Source of the DNA: an uncultured Granulosicoccaceae bacterium
Lineage (GTDB): Bacteria > Pseudomonadota > Gammaproteobacteria > Granulosicoccales > Granulosicoccaceae
Reading direction: 5' to 3'
NCBI GenBank assembly: GCA_937998875.1
Contig: CALLBO010000063.1
Location: 1-64,000 of the forward strand
DNA: 64,000 bases
A model generated the notes under the pieces. That model saw nothing but the letters and a program-made list of their open reading frames with translations. It made no database searches and was not told the origin of the DNA. The position numbers and the translations under genes were made by a program. This document shows positions 3,167 through 22,573 of the stretch, one piece after another; positions within the stretch are counted from its first letter, which is position 1, and the number at the start of each line of letters is the position of its first letter.

Positions 3167-3258
3167 TGAGCTTCCTTATCGCGTCTCTTATCGAGCGTCT
3201 CTGGTGCCTGTGCGCGACATCACTGAATATGGGTAACTTCGATGCGGGCGTAACACAA

Positions 3259-6108
3259 TCAGGTGAATTTTCTCGGCTCACCATCACCGTCGACATTTTG
3301 TACACAGCGACTGCATAGTTCCGGGTGCGTTGCGTCTTTACCGACATCCGCTCTGTGGTGCCAGCAACGCTCACACTTCGGTGTTTCTGATGCTTTGGCA
3401 TCGATCCAAAGTTCACCGTCTTCTATCTCGGCTTGTTCAGCACTGTCGGTCTTAATGGCAAGTGGTTGTACCGTAGCTTCTGAGGTGATAAGTATGAAAC
3501 GCAGTTCATCATCCAGTTTTTTAAGCAGTGCTTCAGTACTTTGATCGCAAAACAAAGCAACTTCTGCATCTAACGGGCCACCGATTTTTTTATCTACCCG
3601 CAGCTTTTCCAGTGACTTTGCGACAGCAATTCTGACCGCAACAATCCGATCCCATTCTTCAATAGTGTAGAGAGAGTTGCTGCTTAGCGGTTGGAGTTGA
3701 TCGTAATAGGTTTCGGTAAAGACGGTTTCACTGTGTTTGCCGGGTAGATGCTTCCAGATTTCTTCGGCAGTAAAACTCAATACCGGAGAAATCCATCGCG
3801 TCATCGCCTCGGCAATATGATACATGGCAGACTGTGCAGAGCGTCGTGCATGGCTGTCTGCTTTGGTGGTGTATTGTCGGTCTTTAACAACATCCAGATA
3901 AAAACCACCCAGTTCGGTGGTACAGAAGTTATGCAATCGCTGATACACCGTATGGAACTGGTAGTCATCGAACGCTGTGCGAATATCATTCTGTAACGCA
4001 AGGGTACGATCAACCGCCCACTGATCAAGAGCGAGCATGTTTTCTATAGGGATTAAATCCGTTGCAGGATCAAAGCCGTTGGTATTAGCCAGCAAGAACC
4101 TTATCGTGTTTCTGATACGTCTGTAAGAATCTGACATCCGGTTAAGGATTTCATCAGAAACGCTCATTTCACCCCGGTAGTCAGCCGAACAAACCCACAA
4201 TCTTATGATGTCTGCACCCAGTGTTTTCATCACTTTCTGTGGTGCGATCACATTGCCAACAGACTTAGACATCTTGCGACCCTTGGCATCAACCGTAAAT
4301 CCGTGGGTCAGTACCTGCTTATAAGGTGCAATACCGTTGATCGAAACACTGGTCAGGATTGATGAATGAAACCAGCCGCGATGCTGATCCGATCCTTCAA
4401 GGTACATGTCGGCAGGGTAGGGTTGACCACGTTGTTGAAGAACATGTGAATACGTTGTTCCGGAATCAAACCAAACGTCCAGCACATCTGTCGACTTTTC
4501 GTAATCATCCGGGTTGTCTTTTATAAAGTCCTCGGTGCTTAGATCAAACCACGCTTGTATGCCGCCTTTCTCGATATGTTGCGCTGCCTGTTCCAGCATA
4601 GGCAATGAGTCTGGATGCAGCTCTCCGGTTTCCTTGTGGATAAACAACGTAATTGGAACACCCCAGTAACGTTGTCTTGAGATACACCAGTCAGGGCGAG
4701 TTTCGATCATGCTGTAGATTCTGGCTTCACCCCAGTCAGGTACCCAGCGTACAGTTTTTATTGCTGCAAGAGTATCTGATCTGAGGTTTTCTTTTTCCAT
4801 ACTGACAAACCATTGTGGCGTGGTTCGAAAGATGATTGGTGTGTTGGTACGCCAACAGTGCGGATAGCTATGGTGGAATGATTCACTAAGAACTAATTTG
4901 TTGGCACTTCTTAGTTCGTCAAGAATATGTTCTTCTACTTTGTATACGTGTTCGCCGGCGAATTTTTCAACCCATGACTCATATGTGCCTGTAGCGCTGA
5001 CATTGTTAAGCAGTCCAAGGTCATATTTTTTACCAGTGTTGAAATCATCTACGCCATGATCTGGTGCGGTATGCACAGCGCCGGTACCCGCTTCTGTTGT
5101 TACATAGTCACCAAGGACTAACAACGAAGGTCGATCATAGATTGGATGCGTCAGTTCGATTTTTTCTATTGCAGAGCCAGCGAAGACTGAAACAGTTTTA
5201 TAGTTTTCACAGGCATAGCGCTTCATGCAGCTATCAACCAGTTCTGTTGCCAGAATGATGCATTCAGTGCCTGCACCCAGATCACATTCAACCACTGAGT
5301 ACTCAAGCTCCGGGTGTACACACACCGCAAGGTTGCCGGGTATAGTCCAGGGTGTGGTGGTCCAGATAACGATAGATAGAGGGAGCTCTGAGCGATCGCT
5401 GTTACAAGCTTTGTGAAAACCCTCATTGTCTGCAGCGCTGAACCTGACGTCGATCGACGTGGATTTTTTATCGCGATACTCTACTTCTGCTTCAGCGAGT
5501 GCTGAGCGCGCCCCAATGCTCCAGTAGACCGGTCTTGTGCCTTTGTACACATGACCTTTTTCAAGCATTTTCCCGAGCGCCCGAACAATACCTGCTTCGT
5601 TTGCAAACTCCATGGTCAGGTAAGGTAAATCCCACTCACCGAAAACCCCCAGTCGCTTGAAGTCTTCGCGCTGGCCATCGATCTGTTTGCTTGCGTATTC
5701 GCGGCAAGCCGCTCTGAAAGTGGCTGCATCTACCGTATTGTCGCGATCACCTGTTCCTGTTTCACTGGGTCTGCCAATCTCTGACTCGACTTTGTTTTCA
5801 ATGGGCAGACCGTGACAATCCCAGCCGGGTATATACGGTGAATCATAGCCATCAAGCTGCTTGCTCTTGACGATCATGTCTTTAATGACTTTGTTTACCG
5901 CATGTCCAATGTGAATATCGCCATTGGCATACGGGGGTCCATCGTGCAGTATGAATTGCTTGTCGCGATTGGCGGATGCCTCGCGAATCTTTTTATAGAT
6001 GTCCAGCTCCTGCCAGCGAGCCAGTGTTTCGGGCTCTTTGTTCGCCAGATTACCGCGCATCGGGAAATCGGTTTTTGGCAGGTTTAGCGTGTGCTTGTAA
6101 TTACTCAC
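3259..6108 (-). CDS. ileS: Isoleucyl-tRNA synthetase
   Basis: This class I aminoacyl-tRNA synthetase charges tRNA-Ile. At 949 residues it has full bacterial length. The HIGH motif appears as HIGH in [11 protein letters not shown] (residue ~70) and the KMSKS loop as [10 protein letters not shown] (~610). A C-terminal zinc site is formed by CERCWHH and CSRCV. The editing domain lies between ~200 and 400 ([11 protein letters not shown]). The start is GTG ([11 protein letters not shown]), 102 bp after ribF. It belongs to the murJ-ribF-ileS-lspA-ispH operon. Confidence 0.98.
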
Positions 6109-7232: not shown

Positions 7233-8795
7233 TCAGACACTGTAGTCACCGGGCCGAAAGCCCGCCAAAAACAGCACAGCTGCATAAGTCACGATGGATG
7301 CAGCGATTATACCGCCTAAGCGTGTAACGCGTTCAATTGCCTGCATTGCCAGCCAGCTATCTGCTGCCGGGTTCAACAACCAGATCACTACCGCCATAGC
7401 CGTGGTTGCGAGTGCAGCTCTTTTGATGGTGCTAAGTTCTTTGGTATTGAGCCTGTAGATGGCGTCCTTTTTCAGCTGCCGATAGAGCATTAACGCATTC
7501 TGATTGGCAGAAACAGCAGTTGCGAGCGCCAAACCCGTGTGCGCGACAGGCAGTGAGGCGAGCATCATTGCACCAACGAAAACGATGTTGTAGCCCATAT
7601 TGCTGATCATTGCGATAATGCCAATGCGAACCGGCGTGCGGGTGTTTTGACGGGCAAAGAAACCGGGCGCAAAAATCTTCACCAGCATCATGCCCGGCAG
7701 TGCCAGCGCGTAGGCGCGCAGCGCCCAGGCGGACATACGTGTGTCTGACGCTGTAAACTCCCCATAGCCGAACAGCGTAGATATCAGCGGGATGGCGAGC
7801 AGCAACAACCCGACCGCAGCCGGCAGTGCCAGCAATACTGCTAACCGGACACCCCAACTCATTGTTTTGTCGAAGTCGTGAATCTTTTTTCCTGCATATG
7901 ATGAAGACAATCGGGGCAGCATCACCGTGCCGATTGCAACTCCGAAAACACCGAGCGGAAATTCCACCAGCCGGTCGGCAAAATAAAGCCAGCTTAAACT
8001 GCCGGCGATAAGAAAGGACGCAATGATGGTGTCGAGCAGCAGGTTAATCTGACTAACCGAAGAGCCGAGAATCGCTGGCAACATCAGTTTTAGAATTTTC
8101 TGTACACCGCTGTCTTTCCAGCCCCATTTTGGAAACTGCAACAAGCCGAGCCGATACATCGAAGGCAGTTGAAACAGCAGTTGCGATAAACCCGCCGCAA
8201 ACACACCCCAGGCAAGCGCCGTTACCGGTATCTCAAAAAACTGAGCACCCCAAAGCGCTGCGGTGATAAGGCAAATATTTAAAAGCACCGGTGTAAAAGC
8301 CGGTACGGCGAACTTCTGAAAAGTGTTCAGGACGCTGCCACAGTAGGCAACCAGGGAGATAAAAAACAGATACGGAAAAGTGATTCGCAGTAGTGCCGTG
8401 GCTGTAACTGCGCGTTCACCACCGTTTTCAAATCCCGGTGCAAACAGCGTGATTAACGCCTCCGCAAATATGCTGCCGAGAATACTGAGTATCAAGACGA
8501 TCCAGCCAAGTGTGCCGCTGACCTGAGATGCCAGTGCGCGAAGGGCATCGGGTGAGCGTGTTTCCCGGTACTCGGAAAACACCGGTACAAACGACTGCGC
8601 AAACGCGCCTTCAGCAAATAACCGTCGCAGGAAATTCGGTATCTTGAATGCAACCAGAAAAGCATCTGTCAGTGCGCCTGCACCGAAAACGATGGCGAAT
8701 ACTTGATCGCGAATAAATCCGAGAATTCGCGACAGAAAAGTCATGCTGCTGACAACGCTGCTTGAGCGTAGCAAGCTGAATGTCACGCCCTTCAA
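7233..8795 (-). CDS. murJ: Lipid II flippase MurJ
   Basis: MurJ is a MOP-superfamily inner-membrane flippase that moves lipid II outward for peptidoglycan synthesis. The 520-residue protein is strongly hydrophobic, with about 14 predicted membrane helices. It begins with the typical LLRSSSVVSSMTFLSRILGFIRDQ and carries the GAGALTDAFLVAFKIPNFLRR segment, whose basic and acidic residues line the cavity. The first in-frame start is TTG (8795); a GTG three codons later is an alternative. It is divergent from rpsT with 137 bp between them and heads the ribF-ileS-lspA-ispH run. Confidence 0.95.
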   Translation of the reverse strand: MKGVTFSLLRSSSVVSSMTFLSRILGFIRDQVFAIVFGAGALTDAFLVAFKIPNFLRRLFAEGAFAQSFVPVFSEYRETRSPDALRALASQVSGTLGWIVLILSILGSIFAEALITLFAPGFENGGERAVTATALLRITFPYLFFISLVAYCGSVLNTFQKFAVPAFTPVLLNICLITAALWGAQFFEIPVTALAWGVFAAGLSQLLFQLPSMYRLGLLQFPKWGWKDSGVQKILKLMLPAILGSSVSQINLLLDTIIASFLIAGSLSWLYFADRLVEFPLGVFGVAIGTVMLPRLSSSYAGKKIHDFDKTMSWGVRLAVLLALPAAVGLLLLAIPLISTLFGYGEFTASDTRMSAWALRAYALALPGMMLVKIFAPGFFARQNTRTPVRIGIIAMISNMGYNIVFVGAMMLASLPVAHTGLALATAVSANQNALMLYRQLKKDAIYRLNTKELSTIKRAALATTAMAVVIWLLNPAADSWLAMQAIERVTRLGGIIAASIVTYAAVLFLAGFRPGDYSV

Positions 8796-16684: not shown

Positions 16685-17407
16685 TCAAACAAGTAGCCGT
16701 TGAAGTGTAGTACCAGAAACCTGAAGTGTATGATATTTGCCACTTTTCAAACCAGTGAGATCCCAGTCACCGATCCGGTGCCGGATGAGTCTTAATGTCG
16801 GAAAGCCAGCCGCGGCTGTCATACGTCTAACCTGGCGGTTGCGACCCTCGCTGAGGGTCAGATCAATCCAGCTGTCCGCCACTGTGAGTCGATGGCGCAC
16901 CGGAGGATCGCGCGGCCAGAGATCGGGGCAGGGAATTCTGTTTACGGAAAGTGCTCGAGCCGGTCCATCCTTGAGGCTTACGCCACGGCAGAGCTGTTCC
17001 AGAGCAGCATCGCTGATTACACCTTCTACCTGCACCCAGTAGTGTTTGTGCCACTTCATGTCTGGGTGGGAAATCCGGTGTTGCAGAGGTCCGTGGTCGG
17101 TTAGCAGCACAAGCCCTTCGCTGTCTTTATCGAGTCTGCCGGCCGGGTAGACGCCTTTTACCGGCACCAGATCAGCGAGGTTGTTGTCCTCTCCGCTGAA
17201 TTGACTGACATAGCCGAATGGTTTGTTCAGCAGAATGACGGTCGCACTGCTTGGCGGGTCTGTCTTCGCTGCATTTAACGCTTCTGTTGTTGGCCTGCGG
17301 GTTGCGCGCCTGCGCGGTCCCGTTGCATTTTTTTTACTGCGGCTTACGCGTTTACCGGGTCGCTTGCCGGGTCGTTTGCCTGTCTTTTTTCGAGGAGGTT
17401 GTGCCAT
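16685..17407 (-). CDS. rluE: 23S rRNA pseudouridine synthase, RsuA/RluE family
   Basis: RluE isomerises U2457 of E. coli 23S rRNA. The catalytic motif AGRLDKDSEGLVLLTDHG is visible at ~85-102, with LLNKPFGYVSQF before it and EGRNRQVRRM after it, all typical of the RsuA/RluB/E/F group. The absence of an S4 domain favours RluE. The first ~45 residues are a lysine/arginine tail with GKRP repeats, probably RNA-binding. Its 5' end overlaps the preceding exonuclease gene by 64 bp. An internal start would remove the overlap, but the basic tail is plausible as coding sequence. Confidence 0.88.
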   Translation of the reverse strand: MAQPPRKKTGKRPGKRPGKRVSRSKKNATGPRRRATRRPTTEALNAAKTDPPSSATVILLNKPFGYVSQFSGEDNNLADLVPVKGVYPAGRLDKDSEGLVLLTDHGPLQHRISHPDMKWHKHYWVQVEGVISDAALEQLCRGVSLKDGPARALSVNRIPCPDLWPRDPPVRHRLTVADSWIDLTLSEGRNRQVRRMTAAAGFPTLRLIRHRIGDWDLTGLKSGKYHTLQVSGTTLQRLLV

Positions 17408-18297
17408 CGTTGTCGGCGTTTGTCACTAAATCCCAGTTGGTCAAAAACCGTTTCCAGTGCATTCGCATCCGGTGTGATTTTATAGTCGGTTAAACTTGTA
17501 TTCACGCTGTTATCACGAATCAGCCCCGTGAGCTGGCGAGCGAGACGAATAGTATCAGCATGCGAATCAAGCAGCTCAGCTACCCGAACAGCACCCCGGA
17601 ATTTCATTGACGGGACTTTGTCAGTGTTATCCAGAAGTGCGGTGAGATTACCCCACTTAACCAGCAACCTTGCAGCTGTTGCAGTACCCACTCCCGGCAC
17701 CCCGGGGATGTTGTCTACCTTATCACCGGTTAATGCCAGCGAATCTGCAATTTGATGGGGGCGCACACCGAAGCGCTTTTCGATAAGCGTGGCATCCATC
17801 CAGATATCCCGGGCAAAGTCCCACACGGCATCACCAACTCCTACAAACTGGCAGAGATCTTTGTCTGCTGTGACGATCACCGAATTGGTATTTTGCTGCT
17901 GCGCAACTTCTGCGAGTGTGCCAATGATGTCATCGGCTTCCAGTGTGCCGCTAGCAAGAGAGGCAATGCCCATCGCCCGCGTAAACGCCTTGCAGAGTTT
18001 GAACTGGTGTTTCAGTTCTTCGGGTGCAGCGCTACGATTGGCTTTATAGTCGGGGTAGATATCGTTGCGCACGGAGGTGGTCAGACTTTCGTCATAAGCA
18101 CATGCAATCAGCTTGGGGTTACGGCGTGATATCAGCTGATAGAGTGTTTCAATAAACCCGACTGTAGCGTTGGCCGGACGCCCGTGTGCGTCAGTGATGC
18201 TGGCGGGCATCGAGTGCCAGCCGCGAAAGACATAAATACTGCAGTCTATAAGATAGAAGGCGTTGGGATTGGATTTTGCGGCAATCGAAGGCTTCAT
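17344..18297 (-). CDS. 5'-3' exonuclease (PolA N-terminal domain / FEN family)
   Basis: The 317-residue protein corresponds to the 5' nuclease domain of DNA polymerase I without a polymerase. It shows the metal-binding acidic motifs EADDIIG (~120) and VTADKDLCQ (~143), then the helix-hairpin-helix DNA-binding segment TGDKVDNIPGVPGVG (~190-205). Such stand-alone nucleases (Xni/ExoIX or YpcP type) remove RNA or flap structures. It is longer than E. coli Xni (251) and more like the full PolA nuclease domain. rluE overlaps its 3' end by 64 bp, implying translational coupling. Confidence 0.88.
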   Translation of the reverse strand: MKPSIAAKSNPNAFYLIDCSIYVFRGWHSMPASITDAHGRPANATVGFIETLYQLISRRNPKLIACAYDESLTTSVRNDIYPDYKANRSAAPEELKHQFKLCKAFTRAMGIASLASGTLEADDIIGTLAEVAQQQNTNSVIVTADKDLCQFVGVGDAVWDFARDIWMDATLIEKRFGVRPHQIADSLALTGDKVDNIPGVPGVGTATAARLLVKWGNLTALLDNTDKVPSMKFRGAVRVAELLDSHADTIRLARQLTGLIRDNSVNTSLTDYKITPDANALETVFDQLGFSDKRRQRWHNLLEKRQANDPASDPVNA

Positions 18298-18333
18298 TAG
18301 CTATGCCCGATGACAATCGGTACTTCCAATTAC

Positions 18334-18363
18334 AAAAATGCCGGCGTTCAGCCGGCATTTTTT
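18334..18363 (-). terminator. Rho-independent terminator of rpmE
   Basis: A perfect 12-bp stem (18334-18345 with 18352-18363 region, sequence AAAAATGCCGGC and its complement) encloses a short loop and ends in T runs on both strands. On the minus strand it ends the rpmE transcript 22 bp after the stop. Confidence 0.85.
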
Positions 18364-18385
18364 AATACATATTTTCAGGTGCTGC

Positions 18386-18589
18386 TTACTTTTTACCGTA
18401 GCGGCGTTTGAACTTGTCTACCTGACCCGCGGAATCAAGAATTTTCTGCTTGCCAGTGTAGAACGGGTGGCACGCGGAGCATACTTCGACGTTCAGGTCC
18501 TTGCCGATAGTAGATCGGGTTTTAAACGAGTTGCCACAACTGCATGCAACAGCAATTTCGTCATATTTCGGGTGTGTATCTGCTTTCAT
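18386..18589 (-). CDS. rpmE: 50S ribosomal protein L31 (zinc form)
   Basis: The 67-residue L31 starts [19 protein letters not shown]. Four zinc-ribbon cysteines are present (C16, C18, C37, C40), so this is the C+ zinc-binding paralogue that is replaced by a C- form in zinc starvation in many bacteria. A clear AGGAA Shine-Dalgarno precedes the ATG. It is a single-gene unit between its terminator and the CPXCG gene. Confidence 0.97.
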
Positions 18590-18750
18590 TGTGTTTCCTT
18601 CGCTTTTTGAGCCGACCGACCCGGAATACCGGCGGTCGAACTGGCGACATTGGTTGAGGGTTGTAATAGTTTACTGGCCAGCCAGACAGTGTAGGGGAAT
18701 CTATGGCTTTATTCAATTAATGCAAGGGTTGTGGTTCGGGTGTGGTGAAT

Positions 18751-18936
18751 TTATTCGTTTTCCTGCCTCACGCTGACTGATTCAATCTGGCAATCCGCAC
18801 CGGCAGTAACGCCGACCAGGATCGGAGAGCAACACACCTGGCAGTCTTCGACGTAATGTTGTTCCGGGATCGAACAATCAATCAGTAGGCTGATCGGCTC
18901 ACCACAGTAGGGGCAGTGGGTATTGTGTTCTTCCAT
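18751..18936 (-). CDS. CPXCG-motif small zinc-ribbon protein
   Basis: This 61-residue protein has the HCPYCGEPI motif at the N-terminus and a second Cys set (EDCQVCCSPI), matching the cysteine-rich CPXCG family (PF14255). The four cysteines probably bind zinc. The family's function is unknown. It lies 152 bp after the TOPRIM gene and 161 bp before rpmE on the same strand. Confidence 0.85.
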   Translation of the reverse strand: MEEHNTHCPYCGEPISLLIDCSIPEQHYVEDCQVCCSPILVGVTAGADCQIESVSVRQENE

Positions 18937-19088
18937 AGTGATGGCCTTGGCGTCGCGGACAAAGATTTGCCAATATTAGGTTAAACGCGCTGGATTATCT
19001 GACACCGGATGAAGAAGACTCGCTGTCAGTAAACATAACACCGCAGTGCAACCTGGAACTGTTATGCCACTTAATAATAATGAATTCG

Positions 19089-19724
19089 CTACGGCAGTAG
19101 CGGCTGGCACAGCTCTCTGCAGTTCTCTACCGACAGTTTTCTGCGTGCAGGGTAATCTGGTGATAACAATGACAAACGTATATTGATATCCAGGCTTGCA
19201 ACACCTTTGAATCGACGCTTGTTGACCACTGAATCTATACGTTCGGCGAGTGCACGACTAACCTTTGCCGCGTGCGTTTCAGAGTAAGCCACAGCGACGC
19301 ACTCGTCATCCCGGTAAAAGCCAAACAACGGTGCACGCACCAGAAAAAGTCTTTCCTGTTCGATGAGTTGCGGCACATACCGGAACAAAAATAACAGCAG
19401 CAGAATACTGGCATGAACGCCATCAGCATCTGGATCACTCAGTATAATAATTCGTTGATAACGGCACGGATCTATCTGGGTGCTCACAAGCCGCTCCGGA
19501 TGCAGACTCTGCAGTAAGTCAGCTATGTTTGGGTGGGCAAGCAGGTTCGCGCTCGATACGCGCGTCGCGTTAGGTACCTTACCTTGCATCGGCAACACGG
19601 CATGCTTTTGCCTGTTTCGTACCGCTTTAATAGCGTTTGCAGCAGACTGCCCTTCCACCACGATAACTTCATCTTTATCGGTACAATCAATGAGGGAGGA
19701 GGGTTGTGCGGGTGTAGCACTCAT
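19089..19724 (-). CDS. Stand-alone GyrB/ParE-like TOPRIM protein
   Basis: The 211-residue protein resembles only the C-terminal half of type IIA topoisomerase B subunits. VIVVEGQSAANAIKAVRNR (residue ~21) parallels GyrB LYLVEGDSAGGSAKQGRNR, with the catalytic Glu kept (E24) and Asp replaced by Gln. AVLPMQGKVPNA parallels AILPLKGKILN. IILSDPDADGVHASILLLL (~94) parallels the metal-binding TDADVDGSHIRTLLL, with the D-x-D-x-D acids kept. RRFKGVASL (~170) recalls the RYKGLGEM tail. The GHKL ATPase and transducer domains are missing. The start is ATG. I infer a nucleic-acid-binding paralogue or decoy of gyrase/topo IV; the function is unknown. ProQ-type gene 105 bp upstream on the same strand. Confidence 0.78.
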   Translation of the reverse strand: MSATPAQPSSLIDCTDKDEVIVVEGQSAANAIKAVRNRQKHAVLPMQGKVPNATRVSSANLLAHPNIADLLQSLHPERLVSTQIDPCRYQRIIILSDPDADGVHASILLLLFLFRYVPQLIEQERLFLVRAPLFGFYRDDECVAVAYSETHAAKVSRALAERIDSVVNKRRFKGVASLDINIRLSLLSPDYPARRKLSVENCRELCQPLLP

Positions 19725-19778
19725 TGGTTGAGCGCCATGACAACACCGTGTCGTTCTGCATAACGGTATGAACAGGCG

Positions 19779-19795
19779 GAACCCGACTCGGGTTC
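19779..19795. repeat. Inverted repeat between the ProQ-like and TOPRIM genes
   Basis: A perfect 7-bp inverted repeat (GAACCCG, 3-nt loop, CGGGTTC) lies in the 105-bp gap. It has no T tract on either side, so it is not a standard terminator. It could be a protein or RNA-chaperone target; this is speculative. Confidence 0.35.
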
Positions 19796-19829
19796 GGCAC
19801 TGATAGGCAAGCCTACTTGAACAAGAAGC

Positions 19830-20369
19830 CTAACTGGCGAGATCTACAGCCCGCTCGGTGCTTGGCTTCACAATCTTGCGTCTGGCAGGTTTGTATCTGA
19901 TCAACGGACCGTCCGCTGTATTGCCGGCGGACGCTCTGGGTACCACCGCAACTTTTGTTTTGCGCTGCTCCTGGATTTTTTTGCGTGACGCTTTGCGAAT
20001 TGCCTGTGCTGCCTTCTGCCGGACTTTTAATGCAGATCGCGCCCAGTCGCGATGCTCAGGAGATACCATCCCAACCGCTTCACCTTGCAGGTTGTAACGC
20101 TTGTCATGCTTGGTCATTCCATACAAATAGCCATAGCTTGTTGTATGGCGTTTAATAACTTCGCGAACTACGCGTGTAGAGAGCTGAGGGTTTTCATCAC
20201 GGTGTGCAAGAATTTCCTTGTGAATCTGCAGAGACAACGGGCGAAGGTCTGGCCCGCGGGTAAAAGATTCCGGCCAGCGCTTTATCAACCAACGCTGGAC
20301 ATCTTTTACTTTGTCTGACGACCATTTCTTATTCATCTGTCTAGTTTTAAAAACTCCGTTCGGAAGCAT
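19830..20369 (-). CDS. ProQ/FinO domain RNA chaperone
   Basis: The protein has 179 residues, or 168 if it starts at the second Met (20336). The ProQ/FinO fold spans ~14-115: LIKRWPESFTRGPDLRPLSLQIHKEI, then STRVVREVIKRHTTSYGYLYGM, then RYNLQGEAVGMVSPEHRDWA. These match the conserved PLKIGI, LRxAL-xxYTxSxxYL and RxxLxG patterns of the family. A long basic tail (~116-179) follows, as in many ProQ proteins. It probably binds sRNAs and mRNA 3' ends. Neither candidate start has a strong Shine-Dalgarno. Confidence 0.86.
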   Translation of the reverse strand: MLPNGVFKTRQMNKKWSSDKVKDVQRWLIKRWPESFTRGPDLRPLSLQIHKEILAHRDENPQLSTRVVREVIKRHTTSYGYLYGMTKHDKRYNLQGEAVGMVSPEHRDWARSALKVRQKAAQAIRKASRKKIQEQRKTKVAVVPRASAGNTADGPLIRYKPARRKIVKPSTERAVDLAS

Positions 20370-20690
20370 GTTTTAAGTCTTTGAGCATAAAGGACACACG
20401 TACAGCTGCAAAGTTCACAGGATGTCTGTGTGGAAGGGAATCGCAAGAGAGTGCCAAGACTCTACACGTATAGTCGAATTGTGACTGAAAACAACTGTAG
20501 ACAACACTATTAAAAGCGCCAATTCATTACGTACAACTACTGCTATTACCGTTTTCACACTGGGCGTAGAATTCGCCCGGTTAACGGGGGATCAGTTGCA
20601 AGTGTCGGAAACAATTTTTTAAATACCTCGATTCTGGCACTAATTTTTTGTCTGGTTTCAGGTACCCTCTCCGCTCGTTTCATCCCACAG
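20370..20690. other. Divergent intergenic region between the ProQ-like and MepK-like genes
   Basis: This presumably carries both promoters and is fairly A+T-rich. A 5-bp inverted repeat GGGCG/CGCCC near 20564-20580 is the only structure I noted. I cannot assign -35/-10 boxes with confidence and I see no gene. Confidence 0.35.
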
Positions 20691-21269
20691 ATGCTGTTTG
20701 AGGGCTCGATGTTACAGACTAATAAGGTACGGTTTTCTCGCCAGAGACGGCTTGCATTGCTTGCGGCACTTGGGAGTTCGTGTGTTCCCTATGGAAACGC
20801 TATTGCCAGTCTGAGCACCTACCCGGAATTGTCTCTATCTCTGTACAACCTGCACACGACTGAATCTTTCAACGGTGTTTTTTGGGCAGCCGGTAGCTAT
20901 GACACCGACGCTCTCGGTCAAATAAACAGCCTGCTACGGGACCACCGCACCAATGGTGTAGTTGAGATAGACCCGCGACTATTATCAATGCTCTATCTCG
21001 TTCGCAATAGGGTAGAAAATGCATCGCAACCTTTCAGTATTATTTCCGGCTATCGCTCCGCGGAGACCAACCGTAAGCTAGCCCTGCGCAACTCCGGTGT
21101 AGCGAAAAACAGCTATCACATCAAAGGCCGTGCAGTGGACATCCGGTTGCCCGGTATAGAAACCTCGCAACTCAAGGAAGCCGGTTTATCGCTCCGGGTT
21201 GGTGGCGTGGGCTACTATGAGAAATCAGACTTTATACATCTCGATACAGGTCCTTTCAGAACCTGGTGA
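20691..21269 (+). CDS. mepK: MepK-like murein endopeptidase (DUF882, YcbK family)
   Basis: The protein closely follows E. coli MepK/YcbK, a periplasmic M15-fold metallopeptidase that cleaves D,D- and L,D (3-3) peptidoglycan cross-links. Zinc ligands sit in SYHIKGRAVDI (~141) and DFIHLDTG (~181), with SGYRSAETN before them. The N-terminus has two arginines before a hydrophobic segment (QRRLALLAALGSS), resembling the Tat signal of the E. coli protein. The start at 20691 or the ATG at 20709 are both possible. It converges with the following membrane-protein gene after 14 bp. Confidence 0.88.
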   Translation: MLFEGSMLQTNKVRFSRQRRLALLAALGSSCVPYGNAIASLSTYPELSLSLYNLHTTESFNGVFWAAGSYDTDALGQINSLLRDHRTNGVVEIDPRLLSMLYLVRNRVENASQPFSIISGYRSAETNRKLALRNSGVAKNSYHIKGRAVDIRLPGIETSQLKEAGLSLRVGGVGYYEKSDFIHLDTGPFRTW

Positions 21270-21283
21270 GAAACCTCCTGTCG

Positions 21284-22573
21284 CTACGCAATACCCTCAA
21301 CTGCGTATAACAGCAACACTGCTACACCGTACATAACCAGTACATAAGGCCAGTTCCAAAAAGCACCTTTCCAGCTTGGTATTCCGTAGCGTCCCTGAAA
21401 AACCAGGTGCGTCCCTGACAGTGGACTTGCGCAGGTACCAAGTCCCCACGCCAATAAATAACACACTGCCAGAAGATCCGGTGCCGGGTTTAGCGTCATA
21501 AGTAACGGCGTCGCACCCGATATAGTTACGATCGGATGTAGCCCTGCCACAGCCAGTAGAATGATCACACCGAGTAGCAGTGAAGCAGAAGCCGCGGTAA
21601 ATCCTGATAGCGAGGGTAGAAAGCTGTCATTAATCACGGCAACAAGCCCTGCTGCAAGCACACCAGCTGCAAGAAACAGTTGTAGTTCGTTGATCATTGT
21701 CGGTAGGCCGCCGACGACGAAACGTGTAAGTATGCGCCTGGCACCAAGCCCTTCCCGAAACAACAACACGACGACCGTTAACAGTAAAGACGACAATGAT
21801 ATGTGTGTTAACACCGACCACTCAGGAGCCAGACTATTCAGCATCAGTATAATCGCTGCCAGCGCTGCAGGGATCCACAGGTTGTAAAAATTAACAGGAT
21901 AGCCTTTGAACTTTTGGACCTGTTGCCAATAGCGCAACCTCACCTCGAGCACCACCACTACAAAGCTCACCATTGCGAATGGCAGACACGCAAGAATGGC
22001 AAATCCTATCCGCATGTCGGGTACGTTGGTTAATACAGCAGCCATGCCACCGAAAAACGGTGACCAGGTTGAAGTTGAGGTAAAGACGCGGGTAATGGAC
22101 TGCGAGGCAAGCCGGTCTAGTACTTTGTGCTTATGCAATACGTCAGAAAAGAGAATAGGCGCGGAAATATTGATTACCGACCCGAACAGACATACACCTG
22201 CCAGTGTTTTTAAAAACGCACCAAAACCAACCGGCAGAGCGACCTTGTTTGTGGTGGTTGCAGGTAATGCGATCAGGCGTAGAAATCCCACTGACGCCAG
22301 CATCGTCACTAAGCCGGTATTGCTTCCTATGGCCTGCAACCATAGTGCGTTGCCGTCACGCAGTTGTCCGACAAGCAATAGCGCCACGCCGGCAAATGCA
22401 ATTACGACAGTTTGATAGCGCTGCGATTTCTTAACATCAACGAACAGCAGACAAACCATACTCCAGCCAACAACTCCCGCCACCCAGGTTGGCACAATGC
22501 GTCCGCCGATGTCACTGACCAGCGTAAGCGCCATCATGATGGCGACTAGAATTCCTCCAGTGGCAACCCTCAC
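21284..22573 (-). CDS. Polytopic membrane protein, ion-transporter-like, unrecognised
   Basis: The 429-residue protein is hydrophobic throughout, with about 11-12 predicted helices. Two regions rich in Ser/Thr/Pro/Gly (SSTSTWSPFFGGMAA-like around 170, and ATPLLMTLNP plus ASPLSGTHLVFQGR around 355-400) lie in equivalent halves, as in transporters of the ion-transporter (ArsB/DASS-like) superfamily. The substrate is unknown. The first start is GTG. A very good GGAGGA ribosome site occurs inside the N-terminal codons (~22554) and an ATG follows 16 nt later (22537), so translation may begin there. Confidence 0.6.
   Translation of the reverse strand: MRVATGGILVAIMMALTLVSDIGGRIVPTWVAGVVGWSMVCLLFVDVKKSQRYQTVVIAFAGVALLLVGQLRDGNALWLQAIGSNTGLVTMLASVGFLRLIALPATTTNKVALPVGFGAFLKTLAGVCLFGSVINISAPILFSDVLHKHKVLDRLASQSITRVFTSTSTWSPFFGGMAAVLTNVPDMRIGFAILACLPFAMVSFVVVVLEVRLRYWQQVQKFKGYPVNFYNLWIPAALAAIILMLNSLAPEWSVLTHISLSSLLLTVVVLLFREGLGARRILTRFVVGGLPTMINELQLFLAAGVLAAGLVAVINDSFLPSLSGFTAASASLLLGVIILLAVAGLHPIVTISGATPLLMTLNPAPDLLAVCYLLAWGLGTCASPLSGTHLVFQGRYGIPSWKGAFWNWPYVLVMYGVAVLLLYAVEGIA

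Follow-up and report, generated by a model that had tools for sequence, protein, structure and literature searches.

The window analysed here is the whole 64,000-nucleotide stretch (positions 1 to 64,000) of contig CALLBO010000063.1, assembly GCA_937998875.1, from an uncultured Granulosicoccaceae bacterium. It carries a gene for a protein that is a GyrB/ParE-type TOPRIM domain plus tail without an ATPase domain, preceded on the same strand by a gene for a ProQ/FinO RNA chaperone, with a DUF882/M15 peptidase gene as the divergent neighbour of the pair (Table 1). The original prediction, made from the DNA letters alone, had placed the TOPRIM frame correctly; it gave no strand, which is minus, and the linkage to proQ had likewise gone unnoticed.

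Toprim is the only Pfam family in the 211-residue protein (E = 5.1e-11, above the cut-off), and the NCBIfam GyrB/ParE models align over the TOPRIM and tail stretch only (PRK05644: model positions 409–583 of 641, E = 1.6e-32, 112.6 bits against a cut-off of 740). Pfam assigns the generic Toprim family to all 23 members of the family and adds PF00986, the C-terminal tail, for four of them at E 0.01; the window protein is not among these four, and its tail is covered by alignments to PDB chains containing both TOPRIM and tail (phmmer and Foldseek). The best phmmer match in the PDB was a gyrase B chain (E = 1e-22). An AlphaFold2 model, for which a 23-row family alignment served as input, has a mean pLDDT of 95 and a pTM of 0.89, and contains the TOPRIM fold as well as the tail. 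Every one of the 50 Foldseek PDB matches listed was a chain of gyrase or of a type II topoisomerase (best match 5bs8, E = 5e-17; also 5eix, 2xkk and 3ksa), and these chains likewise hold both TOPRIM and tail. The predicted correspondence to the TOPRIM and tail of gyrase B, with the GHKL ATPase and transducer regions missing, is thus borne out by the domain models and by the structure search that had been proposed as a check. The absence of a named family also holds, given the generic Pfam assignments and the partial NCBIfam matches of the window protein.

No GHKL domain was found by Pfam in the TOPRIM frame or in the 15 other open reading frames of the window that were scanned. Two full-length B subunits are encoded elsewhere in the same genome, in frames of 649 and 825 residues free of inner stops; both match PF00986 and are taken, by length and tree position, for ParE and GyrB, respectively. 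Rfam gave no match within positions 17000–22000 of the window, and a promoter and terminator scan remained at chance level.

Table 1 Features of the locus and of the plasmid homologue (window positions, except for the plasmid copy)
Feature	Position	Strand	Details
Stand-alone TOPRIM and tail gene	19089..19724	-	211 aa, ATG to stop; Toprim match, AlphaFold2 model, Foldseek matches
Glu24 codon, TOPRIM catalytic Glu (EGxSA)	19653..19655	-	E in 24/24 stand-alone and 52/52 GyrB/ParE rows
Gln26 codon, the Asp of EGDSA in GyrB/ParE	19647..19649	-	Alignment column
Gln47 codon in PMQGK, most constant family mark	19584..19586	-	Q in 24/24 stand-alone rows
D97-P-D99-A-D101 codons, metal-binding DxDxD	19422..19436	-	D97 in 23/24 (Glu in one), D99 and D101 in 24/24
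RFKGV codons (171–175), start of gyrase-B-like tail	19200..19214	-	K173 and G174 each in 23/24
ProQ/FinO RNA-chaperone gene	19830..20369	-	PF04352, E = 2.8e-23; 105 bp upstream of the TOPRIM gene, same strand
DUF882/M15 peptidase gene	20691..21269	+	PF05951, E = 1.6e-49; divergent neighbour of the proQ–TOPRIM pair
Copy on Thiodictyon plasmid pTs417 (L051)	7995-8675		EGDSA retained, with PMQGK; PRTRC genes nearby

Active-site and conserved residues

We aligned 24 stand-alone rows jointly with 52 GyrB/ParE rows; two of the former (L074 and L063) start one residue ahead of Met in this alignment. Three frames, L043, L040 and L077, were kept out of both the 24 rows and the tree, L043 being a 273-aa frame cut by a contig end that scores with ParE. 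The residues singled out in the original prediction are all in place in the window protein, namely the EGxSA Glu (E24), the three Asp residues D97, D99 and D101 and the tail RFKG at 171–174, and the search for orthologs that it called for returned the same acids across the family (Table 1). Its reading of the EGDSA Asp as replaced by Gln (Gln26) is also correct.

Position 26 varies among the 24 stand-alone rows (K 9, Q 4, R 4, L 3, V 2, S 1, D 1); GyrB/ParE has Asp in 50 of 52 rows. Position 47 is Arg in 46, Lys in 4 and Gln in 2 of the 52 GyrB/ParE rows, and since these last two share the residue of the stand-alone family, Gln47 is not an entirely unique mark; one of the patterns used to fetch relatives required QGK and thereby biased the sample towards it. 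EGDSA and PL(R/K)GK are described as GyrB/ParE motifs (PMC2845627), and the stand-alone family departs from both. Positions 26 and 47 align to ParE D435 and R456, which sit around a drug at the cleavage site (PMC2893164). Position 47 is also unusual elsewhere, with Trp (PLWGK) in two Clostridia GyrB (L181 and L182) and Gly (AGGK) in a subunit from Achromobacter phage Motura (L184) that carries DPDPDG.

Thirteen columns are identical across the 24 members. Twelve of them hold the GyrB/ParE residue (E19, E24, G25, A28, G48, K49, D99, D101, G102, H104, L108 and P132; K49 and H104 are thus kept in 24/24), Gln47 being the sole exception. GyrB/ParE has 43 fixed positions (at least 95%), of which 16 are retained in at least 90% of the stand-alone family (the same twelve plus V23, Q41, N52 and D97) and 27 are not. 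Among the changed residues are the EGDSA Asp, the second Gly of SAGG and the Leu, Glu and Met of KGLGEM; position 176 is Ala in 23/24 stand-alone rows compared with Gly in 49/52 GyrB/ParE rows.

Five columns (19, 24, 97, 99 and 101) are acidic in at least 80% of members, all common to GyrB/ParE, and at that threshold no new conserved acid beyond the GyrB/ParE set was found in the sequence columns of the 24 members. Extra acids mark nuclease-type TOPRIMs (E404, which is Glu+4, and E508), and topoisomerases are described as devoid of them (PMC6755086); the Glu+4 residue is E404 in the OLD nuclease (E400+4) and an aligned Asp in RNase M5 (PMC6755086). In the stand-alone family the same position is Ala28 in 24/24 rows, in place of the metal-B acid of the nucleases. 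By sequence, the metal centre of the family is thus of the topoisomerase type. Among the functions originally proposed (modulation of gyrase or topo IV, DNA or RNA binding, or a separate metal-dependent enzyme), the last therefore appears weakened by this active-site comparison.

Distribution, phylogeny and selection

Stand-alone relatives occur in 21 of 48 Granulosicoccaceae genomes. A profile search found short stand-alone frames (180–266 aa) at E ≤ 3.4e-55 in 19 of these genomes, the window's included, and its other matches had E values of 9.6e-47 or worse; two further carriers, G066 (diverged) and G065 (contig-cut), complete the count and were separated from GyrB/ParE by frame and sequence, not by E value. 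The copy in G065 (L077) is cut by a contig end and so stands outside the tree and the 24 rows, yet its genome is within the 21. By genus, the carriers are 13/14 in g1 (the window's genus), 1/1 in g5, 3/3 in g2, 1/1 in g3, 3/27 in g4 and 0/2 in g6. In g4, a 93-aa piece with EGDSA and PMQGK (L040, contig C73 of G023, 3211–3492) may be a broken copy.

Outside Granulosicoccaceae, a few other Gammaproteobacteria have stand-alone relatives: two more copies were found among 369 genomes of the class (G236 and G347), and others in the metagenome-assembled genome UBA652 (L063) and on Thiodictyon plasmid pTs417, where the gene is annotated 'toprim domain-containing protein'. Among the matches listed for 398 genomes of the phylum, there was no short frame besides the window's, the next shortest being 541 aa; the E cut of 1e-48 used in the class and phylum searches would miss members as diverged as that of G066 (1e-40). 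Two plasmid searches matched 173 records each, and among the matches listed only the Thiodictyon one is annotated as a toprim protein. A viral origin was considered and set aside: 80 of 343 viral relatives were retained, with no short stand-alone frame under the motif rule.

The 24 stand-alone rows fall on one side of a branch opposite 41 of the 52 GyrB/ParE rows (11 left out) with support of 100/100. A second tree contained 32 GyrB/ParE rows (20 of 52 left out) and five new ones (two Clostridia GyrB, one Actinomycetes stretch and two phage subunits); the stand-alone side of the branch was retained against these 37 rows with support of 98/99. The stand-alone branches are much longer than those of GyrB/ParE and the trees are unrooted, so long-branch attraction is a caveat on the clade. 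In the second tree, the Thiodictyon/G236 pair lies outside a core of 22 stand-alone rows (95/81). Thiodictyon is the sole row of the 24 with the EGDSA Asp, and because its sister G236 does not have it, this Asp was probably lost more than once in the family.

Ratios of dN/dS (Nei–Gojobori) were obtained for the 12 closest of 55 pairs; nine were saturated at synonymous sites and G005/G012 had a dS of 2.9, leaving two usable pairs, with values of 0.09 (G006/G007; 0.08 for proQ of the same pair) and 0.33 (G008/G009). The kept acids and these two values agree with the original view that the gene is not a decaying pseudogene, and both a pseudogene and a truncation confined to a single genome, the latter named by that prediction as its own refutation, are rejected in view of the relatives in many genomes, their own clade and the purifying selection in both pairs.

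Taken together, the computed lines of evidence, that is, predicted fold, motifs, one-clade grouping, signs of selection and gene linkage, identify the stand-alone TOPRIM proteins as a distinct conserved family descended from the B subunit (GyrB/ParE) of a type IIA topoisomerase.

Gene neighbourhood

The proQ–TOPRIM pair recurs in 13 of 20 other loci, 12 of them from genus g1 and one from G017 of g5. Within g1, the TOPRIM gene follows the proQ/FinO gene in all 13 loci seen (the window and the 12 others); in G002, the one other g1 genome, proQ runs up to the contig end, at the point where the TOPRIM gene would come next. The gap between the two genes is 6–105 bp in the 12 g1 loci measured (window included) and 287 bp in G017. 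Judged from spacing and orientation only, proQ and the TOPRIM gene probably form a two-gene operon in the window's genus. Of the 13 proQ-linked loci, 12 have the DUF882 gene upstream of proQ, and the contig of the thirteenth (L004) starts at proQ. A 429-aa protein encoded at 21284–22573 of the window (minus strand), without a Pfam family at E 0.001, also recurs beside DUF882 in g1 loci. Downstream of the window's TOPRIM gene, the minus strand carries genes for a 61-aa CPXCG protein (18751–18936) and ribosomal protein L31 (18386–18589); neither had a match among the other 20 loci, of which some are short.

ProQ is present in 15 of the 48 family genomes, namely the 14 of g1 and G017; G008 (C257), G009 (C37) and G011 (C90) each have an additional ProQ gene, whose contig shows no TOPRIM match. 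Outside g1, the search for ProQ covered G017 and nine other carriers (G014, G015, G019, G022, G031, G065, G066, G236 and G347), and ProQ was not found in those nine. ProQ is therefore no general partner, and an obligate partnership is rejected. In a mirror-tree comparison, TOPRIM and ProQ gave a partial r of 0.51 once a control gene was taken into account, a value that none of 5000 permutations reached. Omitting G017 brought it to 0.47, compared with 0.46 for the control gene; as specificity is lost, we do not use this rate correlation as support.

The other settings differ. In G014, G015, G019 and G022, the TOPRIM gene has a glycerol-3-phosphate acyltransferase-like gene on one side and, on the other, a divergent pgi gene with parC behind it. 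The same junction in G031 has no TOPRIM gene, its copy being on another contig, and in the window's genome the junction acyltransferase gene has no TOPRIM gene, pgi or parC with it in the 9 kb examined, so a parC neighbourhood, confined to those four genomes, is not the general context. In UBA652 (L063, 5995–7228), the end of the TOPRIM gene overlaps the frame of an SRAP (SOS-response-associated peptidase) gene; the Thiodictyon copy sits behind a gene for an RNB-domain ribonuclease and the G347 copy adjoins an S4-domain gene. The TOPRIM gene has thus changed address while being retained, and no neighbour is universal.

Possible functions and relation to known systems

Type IIA topoisomerases are known to work as clamps driven by ATP. 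Here, a topoisomerase-B module lives alone and is kept as its own gene family, and a conserved protein with only the metal centre and tail would be either a natural case of behaviour known from test-tube fragments (ParE30 and GyrB47) or a piece of a topoisomerase put to some other use on nucleic acids. The gene is labelled only 'toprim domain-containing protein' in the Thiodictyon case and could pass for a gyrB or parE fragment. We considered, in order of preference, an ATPase-free B half, a nuclease in its own right and a non-catalytic brake.

Our best reading, held tentatively and short of probable, is a B half that has no ATPase and works on, or together with, the common GyrA/ParC; as the family lacks the additional acids of TOPRIM nucleases, it would be the natural counterpart of the ParE30 and GyrB47 laboratory fragments. 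The TOPRIM domain and tail would dock on the common A subunits (ParC or GyrA) as those fragments do, E24, D97 and D99 would supply Mg2+, and the Tyr of the A subunit would then open and close DNA without ATP. Gyrase or topo IV might in this way gain a slow form that relaxes or gates DNA independently of ATP, or the normal enzyme might be braked; the TOPRIM dose in the window's genus would probably be set together with ProQ, the TOPRIM gene being downstream in the putative operon. ParE residues 404–647 alone form cleaved and resealed DNA complexes with ParC 1–488 (PMC2893164), and GyrA2/B47_2, which has no ATPase, is described as able to relax DNA independently of ATP (PMC7897471). GyrA/ParC are what the tested carriers have in common: in ten genomes searched for A-subunit genes (PF00521; nine carriers and the non-carrier G016), eight had exactly two and G347 one, the window's genome had one whole gene and two pieces at contig edges, compatible with a single ParC, and no third A subunit was found. 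Against this reading stand the changes at positions 26 and 47, which lie near the cleavage-site drug in ParE by alignment, the 27 of 43 GyrB/ParE-fixed positions that fall short of 90% conservation among members, the much longer branches and the want of a general link to ProQ. A phage-defence TOPRIM gene beside a ProQ gene (ibfA) also points away from topology.

We regard as unlikely a fuller version, in which the stand-alone TOPRIM borrows ParC/GyrA as a natural ATPase-free type IIA DNA gate, cutting and resealing without ATP, at a level coupled to ProQ in one genus. If true, it would link small-RNA control to DNA supercoiling. The testable question is whether a TOPRIM-only subunit shares ParC/GyrA in the cell and changes supercoiling without ATP.

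Next in our order, though unlikely, is a nuclease function of the protein itself, metal-dependent and directed at RNA or DNA, comparable to that of RNase M5 or of the TOPRIM portions of defence systems; in the proQ-linked lineage, ProQ would perhaps feed it structured RNA. TOPRIM ribonucleases are known (RNase M5 and AriB; PMC12409363), the proQ–TOPRIM pair is genus-wide, and the neighbourhood has a precedent on plasmid pUA1135, where ibfA, an ATPase-plus-TOPRIM gene that impedes phage UAB_Phi20, has a co-oriented ProQ gene next to it (PMC12111858); the RNB ribonuclease gene ahead of the Thiodictyon homologue and the S4-domain gene beside that of G347 point the same way. However, Ala occupies Glu+4 throughout the family and no extra acid is conserved, the fold matches are gyrase and topo IV chains, ProQ was not found in the nine searched carriers, the UBA652 member overlaps an SRAP frame instead, and no PADLOC family matches the TOPRIM protein at E 0.01.

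We also doubt, and place after the nuclease, a non-catalytic decoy or brake that fills the TOPRIM site on GyrA/ParC or DNA and reduces the activity of gyrase or topo IV, its acids being kept for DNA binding and fold. TOPRIM and tail retained without the ATPase, and residues changed near the cleavage site in a retained fold, are what such a protein might look like, and the gene is divergent beside pgi–parC in four genomes. Yet the catalytic Glu, D99 and D101 are unchanged in 24/24 rows and D97 in 23/24, which is more than a pure decoy should need, and the parC neighbourhood is not general, the G031 junction lacking the gene.

A split topoisomerase, in which the GHKL half would be encoded by a gene of its own at another site, like the divided large subunit of T4-type phages, is improbable. 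In its favour, T4 gp39–gp60 is among the PDB matches, residues 81–179 align with a phage topoisomerase II profile of 172 aa, and the fold matches include a phage 'topoisomerase II large subunit' of 210 aa; against it, though weakly, no GHKL gene turned up among the 16 window frames scanned. A decaying or recently cut-off gyrB/parE copy, to which the loss of about two thirds of a B subunit and the fast evolution might point, is scarcely credible in view of the clade support in both trees, the two dN/dS values and motifs conserved across several bacterial families, and neither a recent common origin with one genome's gyrB/parE nor a dN/dS near 1 in close pairs was seen.

Among the matches listed in open-licence PMC texts, no paper describes such a family by title; several known systems resemble it in part. 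With GyrB/ParE the family shares the predicted TOPRIM and tail fold, the catalytic E, DxDxDG, GK, N and H, and the KG of the tail; it differs in forming a separate clade, in having the EGDSA Asp in 1/24 rows and Gln47 in all (as do 2/52 GyrB/ParE rows), and in a KGVAS-like tail rather than KGLGE, and the window protein has neither GHKL domain nor transducer. RNase M5 and OLD/AriB have the TOPRIM Glu and DxD, and RNase M5 is also a small TOPRIM protein, but they possess extra metal-B acids (PMC6755086) where the window family has Ala at Glu+4, and the window protein has a GyrB-like fold with a gyrase-B-like tail. IbfA resembles it as the product of a TOPRIM gene adjoining and in line with a ProQ gene (PMC12111858), although IbfA has its own ATPase domain and a 1557 bp gene, unlike the ATPase-free GyrB-type window protein. 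Split phage subunits (T4 gp39/gp60) likewise carry the TOPRIM part, or a piece of one, on its own chain, but in complex with a separate ATPase chain, for which the scanned window frames held no gene. Arabidopsis GyrB3 is another shortened GyrB relative, described as not being a gyrase subunit, and is the reverse case, with the transducer kept and the TOPRIM motifs reported missing (PMC2845627). ParE30 and GyrB47 have the same layout of TOPRIM and tail without the ATPase, and work with ParC and GyrA (PMC2893164, PMC7897471). These fragments are man-made from intact subunits, and GyrB47 of E. coli also contains the insertion of that species, whereas the stand-alone gene is natural and evolves separately, with changed neighbours of the cleavage site.
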